A stretch of 64,000 nt of DNA from Mitsuaria sp. 7 (GTDB lineage Bacteria; Pseudomonadota; Gammaproteobacteria; Burkholderiales; Burkholderiaceae_C). The DNA lies in assembly GCF_001653795.1 (NCBI RefSeq), contig NZ_CP011514.1:4482279-4546278 (forward strand). The letters are read 5' to 3'. Positions within the stretch are counted from its first letter, which is position 1. Every line of letters begins with the position of its first letter. The translations under genes were made by a program, and so were the position numbers. The notes beneath the pieces were generated by a model, which saw nothing but the letters and a program-made list of their open reading frames with translations, ran no database searches and had not been told where the DNA came from. Below are positions 3,744-30,802 of the stretch, one piece after another.

Positions 3744-3802
3744 TCCCCCTCACTCCAAACCGGTCATTTGCCGCACGCGCGCAAACTTGATCCCCCGACT
3801 CA

Positions 3803-3830
3803 GGGCCGCCTCGCGCGGCCCTTGTCGTTT
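3803..3830 (+). terminator. rho-independent terminator of metK
   Basis: A perfect 7-bp GC stem (GGGCCGC/GCGGCCC) with a CTCGC loop spans 3803-3821. It is followed by the T-rich TTGTCGTTT. The same 19-base hairpin recurs exactly at 13441-13459. Confidence 0.85.
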
Positions 3831-3854
3831 CAGGAACGCGGGCATCGCGGCAGA

Positions 3855-4940
3855 ATGACAGGCATGCCTGCGCCCATGCCGACCTCGCCGTCCCCGCTGA
3901 CCATCCTGATCGTCGACGACCAGAACGCGACCCGCGTGGCGCTGACGGCAGAACTCGATCGCGCCGGTCACCGCGTGCTGGAAGCCGACAGCGCCGAATG
4001 GGCGCTGGAGCTGTTCCGCCGCTACCGGCCCGACCTGGTGCTGCTGGACATCGAGATGCCGGGCCACGACGGCTACTGGACCTGCCGCGAGATGCGCGCG
4101 GCCGAACCCGGCGGCTGGACGCCGATCATCTTCCTCTCCCAGTTCAACCAGGACGAGGACGTCTGGAAGGGCATCGAGGCCGGCGGTGACGACTACCTCG
4201 TCAAACCGGCCTCCGCGATGATCCTGCACGCCAAGCTGCGCGCGATGCACCGTCTGGCGCAGATGCGCGCCCGGCTGGTGACGATGTCCGAGGAGCTGCG
4301 GGCCGCCAACGCGCAGCTGGAGGAACTCTCCAGCGTCGACGCCATGACCGGCCTGATGAACCGGCGCGCGCTGGACGCGCGGCTGCAGCAGGAACTGGAC
4401 CTCGCCCGCCGCGACGGCAAGCCGCTGACGCTGATGCTGTGCGACGTCGACCACTTCAAGCGCTACAACGACGCGGCCGGCCACGTCGCCGGCGACGAGT
4501 GCCTGCGCCGCATCGGCCGGCTGCTCAAGGAAACCTGCCGCCGCCCGAGCGACTGCGCCGGGCGCTACGGCGGCGAGGAATTCGCGCTGGTCCTGCCCAA
4601 CACGCCCCGCTCCGGCGCGATGACCTACGCCCGCGCGCTGATGCGCACGGTGGAGCTGGCGGCGATCCCGCACCCGGATTCGCCGACCGGCGCGACGATC
4701 ACGCTCTCGGGCGGGATCACCACCTGCCTGCCCGACGAGAGCACCAGCGCCGAAGGCCTGATCATCCGGGCCGACGACGCGCTCTACAACGCCAAGTCCA
4801 CCGGCCGGAACCGCTTCTTCAGCTACGAGATGCAGATGGACACGGCGGAACAGCGCCGCGCGGTGGCGCCGGCGCCGGCGTCCCCTGCATCGGCGGCGTC
4901 CGCCACCCCGCCTGCCGCGCCGCCCTCGTCCCCGACTTGA
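3855..4940 (+). CDS. response regulator with diguanylate cyclase output
   Basis: A receiver domain is fused to a GGDEF domain. On phosphorylation it is expected to make c-di-GMP in the cytoplasm. In the 361-residue product the acidic pair is VDDQ (21-22), the phospho-acceptor is D65 in LVLLDIEMP, and the conserved lysine lies in LVKP near 117. A helical linker leads to a GGDEF domain with an intact GGEEF (239-243). An RPSD inhibitory site lies five residues before it. The ATG at 3855 is preferred because it puts D65 at the same position as in the paralogue at 5027. An A/P-rich tail follows residue 335. No histidine kinase is adjacent. Confidence 0.92.
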   Translation: MTGMPAPMPTSPSPLTILIVDDQNATRVALTAELDRAGHRVLEADSAEWALELFRRYRPDLVLLDIEMPGHDGYWTCREMRAAEPGGWTPIIFLSQFNQDEDVWKGIEAGGDDYLVKPASAMILHAKLRAMHRLAQMRARLVTMSEELRAANAQLEELSSVDAMTGLMNRRALDARLQQELDLARRDGKPLTLMLCDVDHFKRYNDAAGHVAGDECLRRIGRLLKETCRRPSDCAGRYGGEEFALVLPNTPRSGAMTYARALMRTVELAAIPHPDSPTGATITLSGGITTCLPDESTSAEGLIIRADDALYNAKSTGRNRFFSYEMQMDTAEQRRAVAPAPASPASAASATPPAAPPSSPT

Positions 4941-5026
4941 GGCATACCCGAACTGCTTTCGAGGGGACCGGCCCCGCATAATCGGCTCCGGCACATCTTG
5001 TTGCCGCCTGTCGACGATGCCCGGCC

Positions 5027-6049
5027 ATGGACGCTTCCGCCTCGCTGCCGCCTGCCTCGCTCCCTCCGCTGCGAATACTCGTCGTGGATGATCAGGCGAG
5101 CACGCGCGGGTTCCTCTGCAGCCAGCTGCAGGCGATCGGACACCACACGCTGGAGGCGGACGGCGGCGACAGCGCGCTGGCCCGCTTCGACGGCGACCAT
5201 CCCGACCTGGTACTCCTCGACGTCGAGATGCCCGACCACGACGGCTACTGGGTCGCCAGCCAGATGCGGGCGCACGAGAACGGCGGCTGGACGCCGATCA
5301 TCTTCCTCTCCAGCCGCGACCGCGACCAGGACCTCTGGCAGGGCATCGAGTCCGGCGGCGACGACTACCTGGTCAAACCCGTCTCCAACACCGTGCTGCA
5401 GGCCAAGCTGCGCGCGATGCAGCGCCTGCGGCGCATGCAGACGCGACTGCAGGAGGTCTCGGACGATCTTCGCCACAGCAACGCGCGGCTGGAGAAGCTG
5501 TCCGGCGAGGATCCGCTGACGCGGCTGCTGAACCGGCGCGCCTTCGACGCCCGGCTGGCGCAGGAGATCGCCTGCGCGCGGCGCGACCAGACGCCGCTGA
5601 CGCTGGTGCTGTGCGACATCGACCACTTCAAGCGCTACAACGACAGCTACGGTCATCTGGCCGGGGACGCCTGCCTGCAGCGGGTCGCGCTGCTGCTGCA
5701 GGAGACCTGCCGCCGGCCGCGCGACTGTGCGGCCCGCTACGGCGGCGAGGAGTTCGCGTTGATCCTGCCCGGCACGCCGCGCTCCGGCGCGATGACCTTC
5801 GCGCGGGCGGTGATGCGCACGCTGCGCACCTGCAACATGCGGCATCCGGATTCGGTCGAGCCGCACGTCACGCTGTCCGGCGGCATCACCACCTGCGTGC
5901 CGGATGCGGACACGACCGTCGAGGGCTTGCTGCGGCGCTCCGACGACGCGCTCTACACGGCGAAGTCGCGCGGCCGCAACCGCTTCTTCAGCTTCGAGAT
6001 GCAGATGGACACCGTCGAGCAGGCGCCGAGCGGCTTCGCGCCGCTGTGA
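5027..6049 (+). CDS. response regulator with diguanylate cyclase output (tandem paralogue)
   Basis: This 340-residue receiver-GGDEF protein is a tandem copy of the preceding gene. The acidic pair, phospho-acceptor (D65 in LVLLDVEMP), RPRD inhibitory site and GGEEF motif (239-243) all sit at the same residue numbers. Both active site and product-inhibition site look intact, so it should be a functional diguanylate cyclase under feedback by c-di-GMP. It lacks the low-complexity tail of its neighbour. The 86-bp gap contains a possible CATAAT -10 element, so separate expression is possible. No partner kinase is seen in the window. Confidence 0.92.
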   Translation: MDASASLPPASLPPLRILVVDDQASTRGFLCSQLQAIGHHTLEADGGDSALARFDGDHPDLVLLDVEMPDHDGYWVASQMRAHENGGWTPIIFLSSRDRDQDLWQGIESGGDDYLVKPVSNTVLQAKLRAMQRLRRMQTRLQEVSDDLRHSNARLEKLSGEDPLTRLLNRRAFDARLAQEIACARRDQTPLTLVLCDIDHFKRYNDSYGHLAGDACLQRVALLLQETCRRPRDCAARYGGEEFALILPGTPRSGAMTFARAVMRTLRTCNMRHPDSVEPHVTLSGGITTCVPDADTTVEGLLRRSDDALYTAKSRGRNRFFSFEMQMDTVEQAPSGFAPL

Positions 6050-8441: not shown

Positions 8442-9383
8442 ATGGTCGCACCCACTCCGATTCCCCTCGCCGACGGCTTCCCCGACGCGCTGCAGGCCCT
8501 GCGCGCGCAGATGGTGGATCTGACGCTCCGGCACATCGACGGCGAAGGCTCCCGCCCCACCGCCATCCCCTGCCTGCACCTGATCAAGGCCAGCTGCAGC
8601 ATGCCCAAGACCGCGCCGGCGTTCTACGAGCCCGGCCTGGCCATCGTGCTGCAGGGGCGCAAGAAGGTGGAGCTCGGCACCGAGACCCTGTACTACGACC
8701 CGCTGCACTTCCTGCTGGTGTCCATGCCCATGCTGCCCAAGGGCGGCGTCATCGAGGCGACGCCGGACAAGCCCTACCTGTGCGTGCGCATCGACTGCTC
8801 GACCGCGACGCTGACGGAGCTGATGCTCGAGGTCGGCCCGGCGAGCACCGACGCGTCGCCGTCGGCGCAGTCGGGGCTGAACGTCGCGCCGGTGTCGGAG
8901 TCGCTGCTGAGCGCCGCGCTGCGGCTGATGCAGCTGCTCGACAACCCGTCGGACCAGCGCGTCATGGCGCCGCTGCTGCAGCGGGAGATCTTCTATCGCG
9001 TGCTGACGGGTCCGCTCGGTCCGCGGCTGCGCGCGCTGGCGCAGCAGGACAGCGCGACGCGCCGCCTGTCTCGCGCGATCGACGAGCTGAACCGCCGCTT
9101 CAGCGAGGCCATCAGCATCGACGAGCTGGCCGAGGTCGCGCACATGAGCGCCTCCACGCTGCATCAGCGCTTCAAGCAGCTGACGAGCATGTCGCCGATG
9201 CAGTACCAGAAGCAGCTCCGCTTGCAGCACGCGCGCCGGCTGATGCTCGGCGAAGGGCTGGACGCGGCGGCGGCGGCGCATCAGGTCGGCTACGAGAGCG
9301 CCTCGCAGTTCAGCCGCGAGTACCGGCGCCTCTTCGGCACGCCGCCGCGCGCGGACATCGAGCAGCTGCTGCGCGCCGGATGA
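8442..9383 (+). CDS. AraC family transcriptional regulator (first of a tandem pair)
   Basis: This 313-residue regulator has an AraC_N (AraC_binding-like) N-terminal domain around residues 30-180 (FYEPGLAIVLQGRKKVELG). The C-terminal part has two helix-turn-helix motifs (SIDELAEVAHMSASTLHQRF and YESASQFSREYRRLFG). The start at 8442 is taken because the domain begins soon after it. It diverges from the aldo/keto reductase at 8252, which is its likely target. The intergenic region is about 190 bp. The second AraC gene overlaps its stop codon. Confidence 0.88.
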   Translation: MVAPTPIPLADGFPDALQALRAQMVDLTLRHIDGEGSRPTAIPCLHLIKASCSMPKTAPAFYEPGLAIVLQGRKKVELGTETLYYDPLHFLLVSMPMLPKGGVIEATPDKPYLCVRIDCSTATLTELMLEVGPASTDASPSAQSGLNVAPVSESLLSAALRLMQLLDNPSDQRVMAPLLQREIFYRVLTGPLGPRLRALAQQDSATRRLSRAIDELNRRFSEAISIDELAEVAHMSASTLHQRFKQLTSMSPMQYQKQLRLQHARRLMLGEGLDAAAAAHQVGYESASQFSREYRRLFGTPPRADIEQLLRAG

Positions 9384-10333
9384 TGCCGGCGATGACGACC
9401 TCGATGCCGGACACCGACACCTTGAGCGCGATGCTGTCGCGCCATGCGCCGCGCGAAGGCGTCTGGCCGACGGCCCTGCCCAGGCTGTGGATCATCCGGC
9501 TCGACGCGCCGGGCGGCGAACTCGCGCATGCGGTGCAACCGGCCTCGCTGTGCGTGATCGCGCAGGGCGCGAAGGAGGTCCTGCTCGGCGACGAGCGCTA
9601 TGTCTACGACGCGACGCGCTTCATGGTGTTCACGACCGATCTGCCGGTGAGCGCCCGCGTGACTGAAGCGACGCCGGCGCAGCCCTATCTCTGCCTTCGC
9701 CTGGACTTCGATGCGGAGGAGGTGGCGGAGCTGGTGGCGCGCAGCGGACCGCCCAAGGCGCCGGTCGCACCGAGGGAAGGCGGTGAGGGCGACGATCCGG
9801 GCCGCGGCCTGTTCGTCAGCGCCGTGACGTCCGAGATGCTCGATGCGTCCGCGCGTCTGATGCGGCTGCTCGACCATCCGGAGGACCAGGCCGCGCTCGC
9901 GGCCATGGCGATGCGGGAGCTGGTCTACCGCGTGCTGCGCAGCGACCAGGGCGAGCGCCTCGCGCAGGTCGCGCGCGCCGACAGCCAGACGCAGCGCGTG
10001 CACCGCGCGATCCGCTGGTTGAAGGCGCACTACGCGCAGCCGCTTCGCATCGAGTCGCTGGCCAAGGAGGCGCACATGAGCGCGTCCTCGCTGCACCACC
10101 ACTTCCGCGCGCTGACATCGATGAGCCCGCTGCAGTATCAGAAGCAGTTGCGGCTCCAGGAAGCCCGCCGGCTGCTGATCGCCGAGGGCCTGGAAGTCGC
10201 GCGCGCCGGCCACGCGGTCGGATACGAAAGTCCGTCGCAGTTCAGCCGCGAGTACAGCCGCCTCTACGGCGCGCCGCCGTCGCGCGACGCGGCGAAGCGG
10301 CGCGACACGCCGGCTGCGCGGTTCACGGCCTGA
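9380..10333 (+). CDS. AraC family transcriptional regulator (second of a tandem pair)
   Basis: This 317-residue protein is a paralogue of the preceding regulator, with the same AraC_N plus HTH_18 architecture. Shared blocks include YQKQLRLQ and SQFSREY near the C-terminus. Its ATG at 9380 overlaps the upstream TGA as ATGA, so the two are translationally coupled. A second ATG follows immediately at 9383. Two adjacent, coupled AraC_N regulators could form mixed dimers or respond to related aldehydes or alcohols; that is inference. A hairpin follows at 10334. Confidence 0.87.
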   Translation: MMPAMTTSMPDTDTLSAMLSRHAPREGVWPTALPRLWIIRLDAPGGELAHAVQPASLCVIAQGAKEVLLGDERYVYDATRFMVFTTDLPVSARVTEATPAQPYLCLRLDFDAEEVAELVARSGPPKAPVAPREGGEGDDPGRGLFVSAVTSEMLDASARLMRLLDHPEDQAALAAMAMRELVYRVLRSDQGERLAQVARADSQTQRVHRAIRWLKAHYAQPLRIESLAKEAHMSASSLHHHFRALTSMSPLQYQKQLRLQEARRLLIAEGLEVARAGHAVGYESPSQFSREYSRLYGAPPSRDAAKRRDTPAARFTA

Positions 10334-27000: not shown

Positions 27001-28242
27001 ATGAGTGATCAGATGTATCTCGTTGGCGGGGCCGTCCGGGACGAGCTCCTGGGACTGCCCGTGCAGGATCGCGATTGGGTGGTGGTGGGTGCCACGCCCA
27101 AGTCCTTGATCGACAAGGGATTTCTGCCTGTCGGCAAGGATTTTCCCGTCTTCCTGGATCCCATGACCCATGAAGAGGTGGCATTGGCCCGGACGGAACG
27201 GAAAACAGCGGCCGGGTACCACGGCTTCCAGTTCCACACGGCCCCCGATGTCACCCTTGAAGAGGACCTCGCCCGCCGGGATCTGACGATCAACGCGATG
27301 GCCCAGGCCGCGGACGGGACCATCGTCGACCCGTACGGGGGTCGGCGCGACCTGGAGGGTCGGGTGTTGCGCCACGTCTCGGAGGCCTTCGCCGAGGATC
27401 CGGTGCGCATCCTGCGCCTCGCGCGCTTCGCGGCGCGCTTCGGCGACTTCACGGTGGCACCGGAGACGATGGCCCTGATGCGCGCCATGGTCGCCGCCGG
27501 CGAGGCCGACGCGCTGGTGGCCGAGCGCGTCTGGCAGGAGGTCGCCCGCGGCCTGATGGAGGCTCACCCGGCGCGGATGATCGAGATCCTGCGGGACAGC
27601 GGCGCGCTGGCGCGCATCGCGCCGGAGCTGGAGCGGCTCTTCGGCGTGCCGCAGCCCGAGGCACACCATCCGGAGATCGATACGGGCGTCCACGTGCTGC
27701 TGGTGCTGCAGGAATGCGCGCGCGTCGAGGCACCGCTGCCGGTGCGTTACGCCTCACTGTGCCACGACCTCGGCAAGGGGACGACGCCCGAGGAGGAATG
27801 GCCGCGGCACCTGAAGCACGAATCCCGCGGCGTCGAGCTGGCGGCGGCGCTGTCGCAACGCTGGCGCGTGCCGTCGGACTGCAAGGAGCTGGCGGAACTG
27901 GTCGCGCGTGAGCATACGCATGTGCACCAGAGCCTGGACTTCACCGCCGAGGCGCGGCTGCGCCTGATCGAGCGCTGCGATGCGCCGCGCCGGCCAGAGC
28001 GCTTCGCGCAACTGCTGCTGGCCTGCGAGTGCGACGCCCGCGGCCGCACGGGTTTGCACGATCGCCCTTACCCGCAGCGTCAGGCGCTGCTGCACGACCT
28101 GCGCGCGGTGCAGTCGGTCGATCAGGCGGCGATCTCTTCAGCCGCACTGGCGGCCGGCAAGAAAGGCCCGGCCATCGGCCAAGCGATCCACGAGGCCCGC
28201 AAGGCCGCGCTCAGAGCGTGTGAGACCGATCGCCCACGCTGA
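27001..28242 (+). CDS. cca: CCA-adding tRNA nucleotidyltransferase (multifunctional)
   Basis: It adds and repairs the 3' CCA end of tRNAs. The 413-residue protein has the class II nucleotidyltransferase head with [13 protein letters not shown], the catalytic DRDWVVVG, and [13 protein letters not shown]-terminal HD domain ([11 protein letters not shown] near residue 255) is typical of the multifunctional proteobacterial type. The ATG at 27001 is preferred; a slightly longer start (MLRRN) is possible. The last 13 codons lie in a 46-bp repeat that is copied at 29602. Confidence 0.95.
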
Positions 28243-28249
28243 ACCCCAG
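28204..28249. repeat. 46-bp direct repeat, left copy
   Basis: It matches 29602-29647 at 39 of 46 positions. It encodes the end of cca on the plus strand. On the minus strand it still encodes the last ten residues of the midA product with its stop ([10 protein letters not shown], compared with FSAGDRSHTL in the right copy). The copies flank the nuclease gene, like attachment sites or a donor/recipient duplication. Confidence 0.88.
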
Positions 28250-28256
28250 GCAAGTC

Positions 28257-29438
28257 TTACTCCGGGGATACCGCAGCTTCAGTTTGAAGGGCGGCCGTCG
28301 AAGCGTCAGCCTGCGACGGCATATCGACGGGATCGATCACCCCTTCCAAATAACTCGAGTAACGCTCATGCAGATGCTTGAGCGCGGCACCCTTGTTGGC
28401 CTGGTAGGCCAGCCGTTCCTGAAAGAACTGCATGCGAGCCCGGTTGTCGTCGAGCACCTGACCCCACGTTTTGATGTGGATGGACACGTTGTCGTTCTGA
28501 TGAACGAGACCGGTCGATGTATTTCGGCCGATCTTGAATTTCCCCACGGGACCGATGTCATCGCTGATCACCCAGAACACCCAGTTCACATCGACGTTGC
28601 GAAAGCGTTCGTCAGCGGTCACTGAGGCGGCATAGCACTCGATCTGGGAAATCTCGTCGCGGTCGATCTTGACGGAGGGCGCCTTGAGTTCCACAACGAG
28701 ATGCGTCAAGTCGTTGGCGCGATAGCGCCGCGTCTGCCTCGACAGCATCAGGTCGACGATGCCGCGCGTCTGGACGACATGCTTGACTGGTGCGTCGATG
28801 ACGACGTTCTCTCCCAACAGCGCCTTGTGCTTGCGAAGCACTTCGGTCAGCGACATGTCGTCGACGGAAAGATGGAACTCCTCACCGAAGATCCAGGGGT
28901 TCTCAGCGAGGATGCGATGCAGTTGGGCACGCTCCTTCAGTCGCTGCTTCGGTCCCTTGTCGAAGAGGATTGCTTCAAGGCCGTTCAGAAACTTGAGCCG
29001 TTCGGAGACGACCTTCGCGCCGTTGATGATTGAAGACAGCGAGCCCTCACGCAACAGTTCGGCAAGTTCCTCCTGCTGGCGCACAGGGAGGTTCAAGACC
29101 TCGGTCAAGATCAGTTGAAGATCCTCGGGGCCCTTCTCGATCGCCTGTCGGAGCATCCGAAGGTGAAGGGCCTTGCTCCTCGGCGCAGCACCTTCGAAGC
29201 CTGGAAGATAGCGGGCGACATTGAGGGCGACGATGTCGAAGACCTGGCGCTCTATGAACTCGAGCTGGGTTGTGGGTTCATCGTCGGGGAACGGATAAAT
29301 CTTCTCCGCCTTCCAATCGGCGACGAAGCTGCGGGCTTCCTGCGCCGCGATCGCACGCAAGTGGCTCTTGTTCAGATCGAACGCACGACGTCCAGCGATC
29401 CTCGACTGAACCTCGATCCGAAATTCTTCTAGCTGCAT
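28257..29438 (-). CDS. PD-(D/E)XK nuclease, Shedu/DUF4263-like
   Basis: The 393-residue product has an unassigned N-terminal helical half and a C-terminal nuclease-like domain. NPWIF (180-184) precedes D229 in IVDLML, then E250-L-K252 in VVELKAP, then Q265 and Y269 in QIECY. That is the D...ExK...QxxxY layout of PD-(D/E)XK nucleases and resembles the Shedu anti-phage effector family. The start at 29438 follows GAGGTG at a good distance; a frame 31 codons longer exists. Base composition is visibly lower in GC than its neighbours. It is the only gene between two 46-bp repeats, so it is probably acquired. The exact family needs a profile search. Confidence 0.72.
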   Translation of the reverse strand: MQLEEFRIEVQSRIAGRRAFDLNKSHLRAIAAQEARSFVADWKAEKIYPFPDDEPTTQLEFIERQVFDIVALNVARYLPGFEGAAPRSKALHLRMLRQAIEKGPEDLQLILTEVLNLPVRQQEELAELLREGSLSSIINGAKVVSERLKFLNGLEAILFDKGPKQRLKERAQLHRILAENPWIFGEEFHLSVDDMSLTEVLRKHKALLGENVVIDAPVKHVVQTRGIVDLMLSRQTRRYRANDLTHLVVELKAPSVKIDRDEISQIECYAASVTADERFRNVDVNWVFWVISDDIGPVGKFKIGRNTSTGLVHQNDNVSIHIKTWGQVLDDNRARMQFFQERLAYQANKGAALKHLHERYSSYLEGVIDPVDMPSQADASTAALQTEAAVSPE

Positions 29439-29601
29439 GACACCTCGCTTCATTCGCTGCTTCGCGCCGGTGTGGCGCATGCGAATGGAGAGGTGATTGA
29501 ACAATAGCCGCGAGGACTCGAACGCGTTCAAGACCCGCGGTTAACTAATGCCAGTCAGTGCTGCTTGAATTCCCACCAAGATGGGTCACTCCCGTTGTCG
29601 C

Positions 29602-29647
29602 GCCGCGCTCACAACGTATGCGACCGATCCCCCGCGCTGAACCCCAG
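29602..29647. repeat. 46-bp direct repeat, right copy
   Basis: This is the partner of 28204-28249 (39/46 identical). On the minus strand it encodes the genuine C-terminus of the midA product. On the plus strand it still encodes AALTTYATDPPR plus stop, a relic of the cca C-terminus ([12 protein letters not shown]). Confidence 0.88.
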
Positions 29648-30802
29648 CGCATCGAAGCCCTCCTCCGGCGCGAAGCCGATGACCTTGAAGAGCTCGCCCA
29701 TCTCGTGCTCCGCGATGAGCCGGTGGGCCATGCCGCGTTGCGCGAGGTCGGCGCCGCTCATCAGGTCGACCAGGCCGCAGTTGATCAGGAAGTTGGCCTG
29801 GCTCGTGTAGCCCAGCACCATCAGCCCCGCGTCCTGTCCCGCCAGCGCGATGCCGGTGAAGTTCACGTGCGCGGTGATGTCCTTCTGCCCCGGCAGCGCC
29901 AGCGGATCGGGGTCGGACCGGTGCAGGTGATGGCACATCACCGTGCCGCCGGTGCGCTGCGGGTGGTAGTACTCCGACTCCGGGAAGCCGTAATCGATGA
30001 AGAACGCCGCGCCGCGCTTCAGGCGCTCCGCGAGCGTGCGCACGAAGGCCTCGGACTGCGGATGGATCTCCGTCACCGTGCCGGGGACGAAGCCCACGTC
30101 GTGCTCGGGCGGCGTCGGCGGACGCGCGTCGCCGGGCCGGTCGTCGAAGGACAGCACGCCCTGCCCGTCCATCGTCACGCCGCGCTGCAGCCAGTGCTCG
30201 CCGTCCCAGCGCAGCAGCTCGACCGGGATCGCGTCCAGCAGCTCGTTGGCGACCAGCACGCCGTGGATCTCGTCCGGCCAGCGATCCAGCCATTCGACCC
30301 GCGGCGCGAAACGCGCGAGCCGCTCCGCCTGGCGCTCGCGCAGCGTGCCCGACAGATCCACGATGAAGTACTTCGACACCGGCGTCCCGGCCGCATCCAG
30401 CGTCTCCAGCAGCTGTGCCGCCAGCGCACCGCTGCCCGCGCCGAACTCGATCACCGTGTCCGTGCCGCTGACCGCCAGCGCCTGCGCGACCTGCTTCGCC
30501 AGCGCTCGACCAAACAGGGGTGACAGCTCCGGCGCCGTCACGAAGTCCGAGCCCTGCTGGGGCATCGTGCCGAACTTGCGGCGCGCGTTGGCGTAGTAGC
30601 CCACGCCCGGCGCATACAGCGCCAGGCTCATGTAGCGGTCGAAAGGCAACCAGCCGCCGGCGGCGTCGATCTCGTCGCGCAGCAGCGCGGTCATGGCGGG
30701 ATCGGTCGCATGGACCGGCGTACTCGGCGATGAACGGGCAGCGCCATGCGGCGCGGACGCCGCGCCATTCAGGCGGGCGGCATCGGGTGTCTTTGAAGTC
30801 AT
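29609..30802 (-). CDS. MidA/NDUFAF7-like SAM-dependent methyltransferase
   Basis: The 397-residue protein is a class I methyltransferase of the DUF185 family. Its mitochondrial relative NDUFAF7 dimethylates an arginine of complex I. Visible blocks are LPFDRYMSLALYAPGVGYY, FVTAPELSPLFGRALA, the SAM-binding VIEFGAGSGALA near residue 115, and FFIDYGFPESEYYHP near 262. The ATG at 30802 overlaps the stop of the PAS/GGDEF/EAL gene as ATGA, making it the last gene of that operon. Its C-terminus lies in the 46-bp repeat. Confidence 0.88.
   Translation of the reverse strand: MTSKTPDAARLNGAASAPHGAARSSPSTPVHATDPAMTALLRDEIDAAGGWLPFDRYMSLALYAPGVGYYANARRKFGTMPQQGSDFVTAPELSPLFGRALAKQVAQALAVSGTDTVIEFGAGSGALAAQLLETLDAAGTPVSKYFIVDLSGTLRERQAERLARFAPRVEWLDRWPDEIHGVLVANELLDAIPVELLRWDGEHWLQRGVTMDGQGVLSFDDRPGDARPPTPPEHDVGFVPGTVTEIHPQSEAFVRTLAERLKRGAAFFIDYGFPESEYYHPQRTGGTVMCHHLHRSDPDPLALPGQKDITAHVNFTGIALAGQDAGLMVLGYTSQANFLINCGLVDLMSGADLAQRGMAHRLIAEHEMGELFKVIGFAPEEGFDALGFSAGDRSHTL

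Follow-up and report, generated by a model that had tools for sequence, protein, structure and literature searches.

The window, by which we mean the whole 64 kb stretch of DNA that was analysed, carries two intact convergent genes, cca for the tRNA nucleotidyltransferase and midA for a protein of the Methyltransf_28 family, with a single gene for a nuclease of the PD-(D/E)XK type between them (Table 1). The product of cca shows the Pfam domains PolyA_pol (E 6.3e-18), PolyA_pol_RNAbd and HD, and the gene was matched in 80 of the 80 genomes searched, the window's own among them. midA was matched in 16 of 16 genomes of the genus, its own included; these are the window's genome (G000) and a comparison set of 15 others (G001-G015), of which G005 was taken as Roseateles noduli HZ7, the window's species being placed in Roseateles on the strength of G005. 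The stops of the two genes are 1366 bp apart, and the G+C content between them is 58.3% versus 68.7 and 70.3% in the flanks used. The inserted segment is made up of the nuclease gene flanked by 163 bp on the side of its start and 7 bp beyond its stop.

Table 1. Features of the cca-midA junction, with positions in the window.
Feature	Position	Strand	Basis
cca, tRNA nucleotidyltransferase, intact, ends inside L	27001..28242	+	open frame of 413 aa
Copy L of the duplicated overlap, with 7 nt on either side of the 32 nt	28204..28249		40/46 identical to R
Inserted segment, 1352 bp	28250..29601		low G+C between the stops; missing in the 4 alleles that overlap
Short-form PD-(D/E)XK-type nuclease, 393 aa, 1182 bp	28257..29438	-	motif ...GIVDLML...VVELKAP; Pfam HSDR_N_2 below cut-off
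Nuclease leader, 163 bp	29439..29601	-	DNA matches among the 16 genomes of the genus
Copy R of the duplicated overlap	29602..29647		40/46 identical to L
midA, Methyltransf_28 family, intact, ends inside R	29609..30802	-	397 aa; Pfam Methyltransf_28, E 1.9e-56

The insert is enclosed by a 46-nt direct repeat, copies L and R, which a repeat search of the 64 kb recovered at 87% identity. A repeat of this length around the nuclease had been noted from the sequence; it is real, and the identity given there, 39/46, is corrected to 40/46. At spacings of 100-5000 bp the 64 kb hold eight pairs matching at 40/46 or more, which are L/R and seven others, located in two tandem pairs of paralogous genes (about 4.0-6.0 kb and about 9.3-10.3 kb). 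When the window was simulated five times with a Markov-1 model, the best matches were 33, 32, 32, 32 and 32 of 46 and none reached 40, and at 40/46 versus a simulated best of 32-33/46 a chance origin of the L/R repeat is ruled out. The first paralogous pair (3768-6049, plus strand), which we take to encode a response-regulator receiver and a GGDEF-like domain, is a tandem duplication of two genes, which share repeated pieces matching at up to 44/46; in the second (about 8500-10333, plus strand), presumably AraC-like regulators, two adjacent genes share repeated segments, the best at 41/46.

L is the 3' end of cca on the plus strand and R the 3' end of midA on the minus strand, the MidA protein ending in GDRSHTL. 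Each copy encodes in addition most of the tail of the other gene on the opposite strand, as had been claimed from the sequence: L reads as midA, and R translated as cca gives LTTYATDPPR followed by a stop. The evidence on the insertion event consists of these 46 bp only, and their exact ends are blurred by drift.

The nuclease has one Pfam match, HSDR_N_2 (E 1.4e-4; 22.4 bits, under the cut-off of 25), and no match in NCBIfam; PADLOC returned only Csm2 at E 0.03. Most of its relatives are longer, 102 of the 120 listed having 640-705 aa, and those long relatives that were examined carry an N-terminal GHKL ATPase domain (HATPase_c_3), which is missing from the window's short form. In PADLOC the long relatives gave weak matches to REase_II (E down to 5.8e-7) and MzaB, located in the ATPase part, and one of them matched PDC-M02A (E 0.005). 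Matches in a profile search of the PDB were also confined to the ATPase part of the long relatives (21 sequences, mostly MORC and MutL). Foldseek with the nuclease found nothing at E <= 0.001. With respect to Shedu SduA, the nuclease has neither a DUF4263 match in Pfam nor a Shedu match in PADLOC, and its structure model is only moderate (pLDDT 64.5). The window's genome has two more relatives of the nuclease, both too short for the ATPase domain (L097:5776-7149, 62%; L099:5180-6244, 51%), and G005, G006, G009, G010 and G013 have one each, with 49-51% identity to the query. The short forms nearest to it are P0004, at 91%, and P0005, P0006 and P0008.

The leader, searched as DNA in the 16 genus genomes, is matched in G009 (89%) and G005 (71%) at their own cca-midA junctions and in G011 over 32 bp (88%); beyond this 32-bp match the 16 genomes hold no further copy, and no donor for nuclease plus leader was found. 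Plasmid relatives of the nuclease are distant, all 46 records having less than 60% protein identity, and the seven plasmid records matching as DNA do so partially, at 63-80%. The two phage records, one of them Pasteurella phage Pmp3, are distant as well (35%). The possibility that the nuclease is a mobile gene bringing such repeats elsewhere was rejected: at four other copies (G008 contig 1, G000 at 4.35 and 5.69 Mb, and G429) none of the flanking repeat families listed is comparable. The G008 copy sits between two convergent genes which, by eye, are separate in G003, G011 and G012.

In line with the prediction that no integrase lies inside, neither an integrase nor a transposase was found in the 1352-bp insert, where the four opposite-strand ORFs of 105-119 aa have no Pfam family at E <= 0.1. 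The insert lacks the features of an insertion sequence or transposon, having no transposase and no inverted repeat of at least 12 nt pairing its two ends, and those of an integrase-driven genomic island, since it has no integrase and the repeat was not found at junctions with other cargo. The known kind of event which it resembles is insertion with long target duplication, a concept reportedly credited to Nobusato et al. 2000 (Gene 259:99-108). Shared with that class are relatives which have a single target copy and no insert (G006, G010, G014 and G015), direct target copies of tens of bp (here 46 bp, 40/46) and a nuclease-type gene with no transposase found. The known cargo of the class is restriction-modification genes, whereas the only gene here is the nuclease gene and no methyltransferase was found in the insert, so that it is not a restriction-modification example; a further difference is the target, which is a coding overlap of two convergent genes whose copies later specialised. 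Passages of four papers report such insertions for restriction-modification genes (PMC1643837, PMC3031569, PMC4978471, PMC3154945). Literature searches on the cca-midA site or on overlapping convergent targets gave nothing on point. It is well supported that the junction is a case of this known kind of event with an uncommon target.

Comparison of the 15 relatives showed four states of the junction. In four genomes (G006, G010, G014, G015) cca and midA overlap once, tail to tail, by 32 nt with no insert, both genes ending at the same places; in three (G001, G003, G008) they overlap by 13 nt; in two (G011, G012) they are separated by 29 and 40 nt without an inserted gene; and in six (G002, G004, G005, G007, G009, G013) an insert of 1.3-2.6 kb lies between them. 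In a tree of 14 flanking ORFs, chosen mechanically and some of them missing in G007, G009 or G010, G006 and G010 branch just outside a group formed by G013 and the three nuclease carriers (G000, G005, G009), followed by G004, G002 and then G014 with G015. As the 32-nt overlap is present at both levels of this tree (G006/G010 and G014/G015), it is ancestral by parsimony, and the ancestral tail-to-tail overlap that had been proposed from the window is borne out by these four alleles, as is the expectation that relatives without the insert would show the overlap singly. That the insertion duplicated the overlap and damaged neither gene also agrees with the junction, in which the overlap is present twice and cca and midA are both whole.

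The same anatomy would result if the overlap had first been duplicated in tandem, for instance by replication slippage, and the nuclease had later entered harmlessly between the copies. This is a simple route, and G011 and G012, with neither overlap nor inserted gene, are in its favour, but a search of 200 nt around the junction found no second overlap copy in any of the nine insert-free relatives (best 15-19 of 34, shuffles reaching 19-22), and we regard the route as very improbable. To the eye a stretch in the gap of G011 resembles the overlap, yet it did not exceed shuffled sequence, 54 and 147 of 200 shuffles being as good. The outcomes that would have spoken against the original prediction, two copies in relatives anyway or no overlapping relative at all, are thus not those observed.

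Other cargo at the same site, which the original note had suggested looking for, is present among the relatives. G005 has the same nuclease intact at 80% identity; its match was listed with three stops, yet no stop interrupts the 379 aa that follow its start. G009 has nuclease remnants together with an S9-family peptidase, G002, G004 and G013 have the peptidase only, and the ORFs in G007 are unrelated. For G007 the midA end was placed by hand from the tblastn match, an in-frame stop having misled the script; this midA match (L072) contains one in-frame TAG, and the gene may be broken or misassembled.

From 140 genomes in which cca and midA were looked for, twenty junctions outside the genus were chosen by hand. 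A 13-nt overlap is found in one and a 32-nt overlap in none, 11 have gaps of 3-211 nt and eight have inserts of 0.7-8.2 kb. In these other genera of the family (L139-L146) the space between cca and midA is a recurrent insertion site, 8 of the 20 hand-picked junctions carrying 0.7-8.2 kb there. Similarity of the left and right ends was scored at the 18 junctions with a gap over 190 nt, seven from the genus and 11 of the 20 from outside. Over the 34-nt core L and R match at 29 positions in G000, 26 in G005 and 24 in G009, and at the remaining 15 separated junctions, four from the genus and 11 from outside it, the score is 17-21 of 34, which is shuffle level. Because of this the duplicated overlap is demonstrated only at the nuclease junctions, and the peptidase-only alleles give no sign of it; no L copy is visible in G002, G004 or G013.

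Within a genome L and R differ at 6, 9 and 10 of 34 positions, against a flank divergence of 6.5-8.7% between the three carriers, and the duplication therefore seems to predate their divergence. In pairwise comparisons of the carriers 6, 5 and 2 of 34 positions differ for L and 1, 1 and 2 for R.

The changes in the two copies were read against the empty overlap allele of G010 over the 34-nt core. R differs from it by 5 nt in G000, 4 nt in G005 and 6 nt in G009, and in each case no midA residue is changed (null P for this few midA changes 0.0013, 0.0046 and 0.0004) while every change alters a cca residue (5, 4 and 6, respectively). R of the non-carrier G013 behaves in the same way (4 nt, 0 midA and 4 cca residues, P 0.0048), and R of G002 and of G004 differ by 4 nt each, with one midA and three cca residues changed (P 0.08). 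L of G000 differs by 1 nt, which leaves cca intact and changes one midA residue; for G000, G005 and G009 the cca residues changed in L are 0, 1 and 1 and the midA residues 1, 4 and 3, a weak test for cca (P 0.28, 0.03 and 0.08), and the tests on L and R are not independent as the copies share descent. These alignments show that each copy retained a single code, L that of cca and R that of midA. The 15% divergence between the copies had been taken to suggest that one of them was foreign, and in that form this is not supported: all five changes in R are silent in midA and alter cca, L kept cca, and with the changes split by frame and a duplication that looks older than the split of the carriers, divergence by itself is no evidence for a foreign copy. 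It fits an old duplication released frame by frame; it is conceivable all the same that R was borne in by donor DNA.

We consider it probable that the nuclease gene with its leader entered the 32-nt overlap in an event that duplicated it, after which L evolved as cca and R as midA. In the ancestor the two genes would have ended tail to tail; one nuclease gene with its leader would then have left a full copy of the overlap (32 nt and about 7 nt on each side) at both ends, and each separated copy, freed of one code, would have gone on serving a single gene. This would have been a single event, older than the divergence of G000, G005 and G009 and perhaps than that of G013 as well. How the duplication arose is an inference. 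The likeliest route would be homologous recombination inside midA by incoming linear DNA that carried the nuclease beside a midA 3' end, the other end being joined illegitimately just past the cca stop; the incoming DNA would not need a recombinase of its own. A passage on naturally competent species describes such homology-facilitated illegitimate recombination (PMC2884548). Such an event would have homology at one end and an illegitimate joint at the other, and would bring in a new gene and duplicate the homologous edge; at the cca-midA junction no donor and no certain microhomology were found. As an insertion without duplication would truncate cca, midA or both, only a duplicating event leaves both whole, and the junction may in this respect reflect a survivor bias, the other events having broken a gene.

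The right end of the sister species G013 counts against this explanation. R of G000 is 33/34 identical to R of G013, an allele with other cargo and no visible L, and both use the Leu codon TTG, which makes up 4% of Leu codons. The R ends of G002 and G004 have drifted too, with no visible L copy. Either the event is older than the split, in which case the cca end and the cargo of G013 were exchanged afterwards, or the source of R was an allele of the G013 type. The latter leads to a different reading, according to which the junction is a hybrid: L would derive from an overlapping allele, L of G000 differing from that of G010 at 1 of 34 positions, and R from one with cargo and without overlap, such as those of G013, G002 and G004. 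Recombination would have joined the two around the nuclease, and the repeat would then be allelic homology rather than a duplication made on insertion. The near-identity of R to the right end of G013 keeps this a live rival, and the absence of a visible L from peptidase-only alleles is in its favour. On the other hand, the GCCGCGC upstream of the midA stop in R of G000, present also in G005 and G004 and not in G013 or G009, matches the cca codons of the overlap allele, and 150-nt windows along cca and midA reveal no clear donor tract. We judge this origin rather unlikely.

Exchange of cargo at the site would favour such a hybrid. The G013 peptidase is 69% identical to that of G002 and 60% to that of G009, contrary to the tree, and G013 and the more distant G002 have in common a 15-nt gap in the cca tail; both point to exchange at the cca-midA site. 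Since the similarity of the peptidases contradicts the species tree, a single ancestral peptidase insertion inherited by all is disfavoured. In G009 the nuclease remnant ends in GCCGCGCTCACAACG with the peptidase directly after it, TCACAACG recurs at midA, and the peptidase lies 8 nt inside midA. A second entry into the midA 3' end, which again left midA whole, seems to have taken place. Gain of the peptidase in G009 and its loss in G000 and G005 both fit; loss would be two events on the flanking-ORF tree, and gain is the more economical if that tree is correct (G005 groups with G009 at a support of 0.999 in the flanking-ORF tree, of 0.932 with midA and of 0.474 with cca).

Two features of the junction, direct repeats at the 3' ends of genes and a variety of cargoes, are usual for attachment sites, and the overlap could accordingly be read as such a site, used by a recombinase acting in trans or since lost. 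The 1.35-kb insert has no integrase, the junctions with peptidase only and those with cargo in other genera do not show the repeat, and the G009 peptidase sits at a different point, 8 nt into midA; we hold site-specific integration to be very improbable.

A break in overlapping genes damages two products, and such genes should for this reason resist insertion; the cca-midA junction, on the preferred reading of a duplicating entry, is an example of how this barrier can be passed. A bolder and, in our view, unlikely extension is that overlapping ends of convergent housekeeping genes serve as a recombinase-free docking site, where cargo would enter by homology to the overlap, rebuilding both genes, and would be released by recombination between the copies, the locus cycling between overlapping and cargo-bearing states. 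A general question also becomes testable, namely how often defence-type genes enter convergent junctions by duplicating the gene ends.

The case is most useful as a record of frame-specific release. In this natural experiment a sequence that carried two codes gave rise to two copies with one code each, so that the cost of the overlap can be read. In the overlap alleles of G006, G010 and G014, three of the four, midA uses the Ser codon TCT (1% of Ser codons) and the Leu codon CTC (16%), and R of the carriers uses Ser TCG (42%) and Leu TTG. The change from TCT to TCG is towards a common codon; that from CTC to TTG is not towards a preferred one, and G015 has TCG in midA while still overlapping, two observations which count against the preferred explanation. 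Among overlap alleles, those of G010 and G014 differ at 2 of 34 positions against 19.8% in the flanks (P 0.024) and those of G006 and G014 at 3 of 34 (P 0.09), the G015 allele being without such conservation (9-10 of 34 differences); the low divergence among the overlapping G006, G010 and G014 may be a hint of double constraint.
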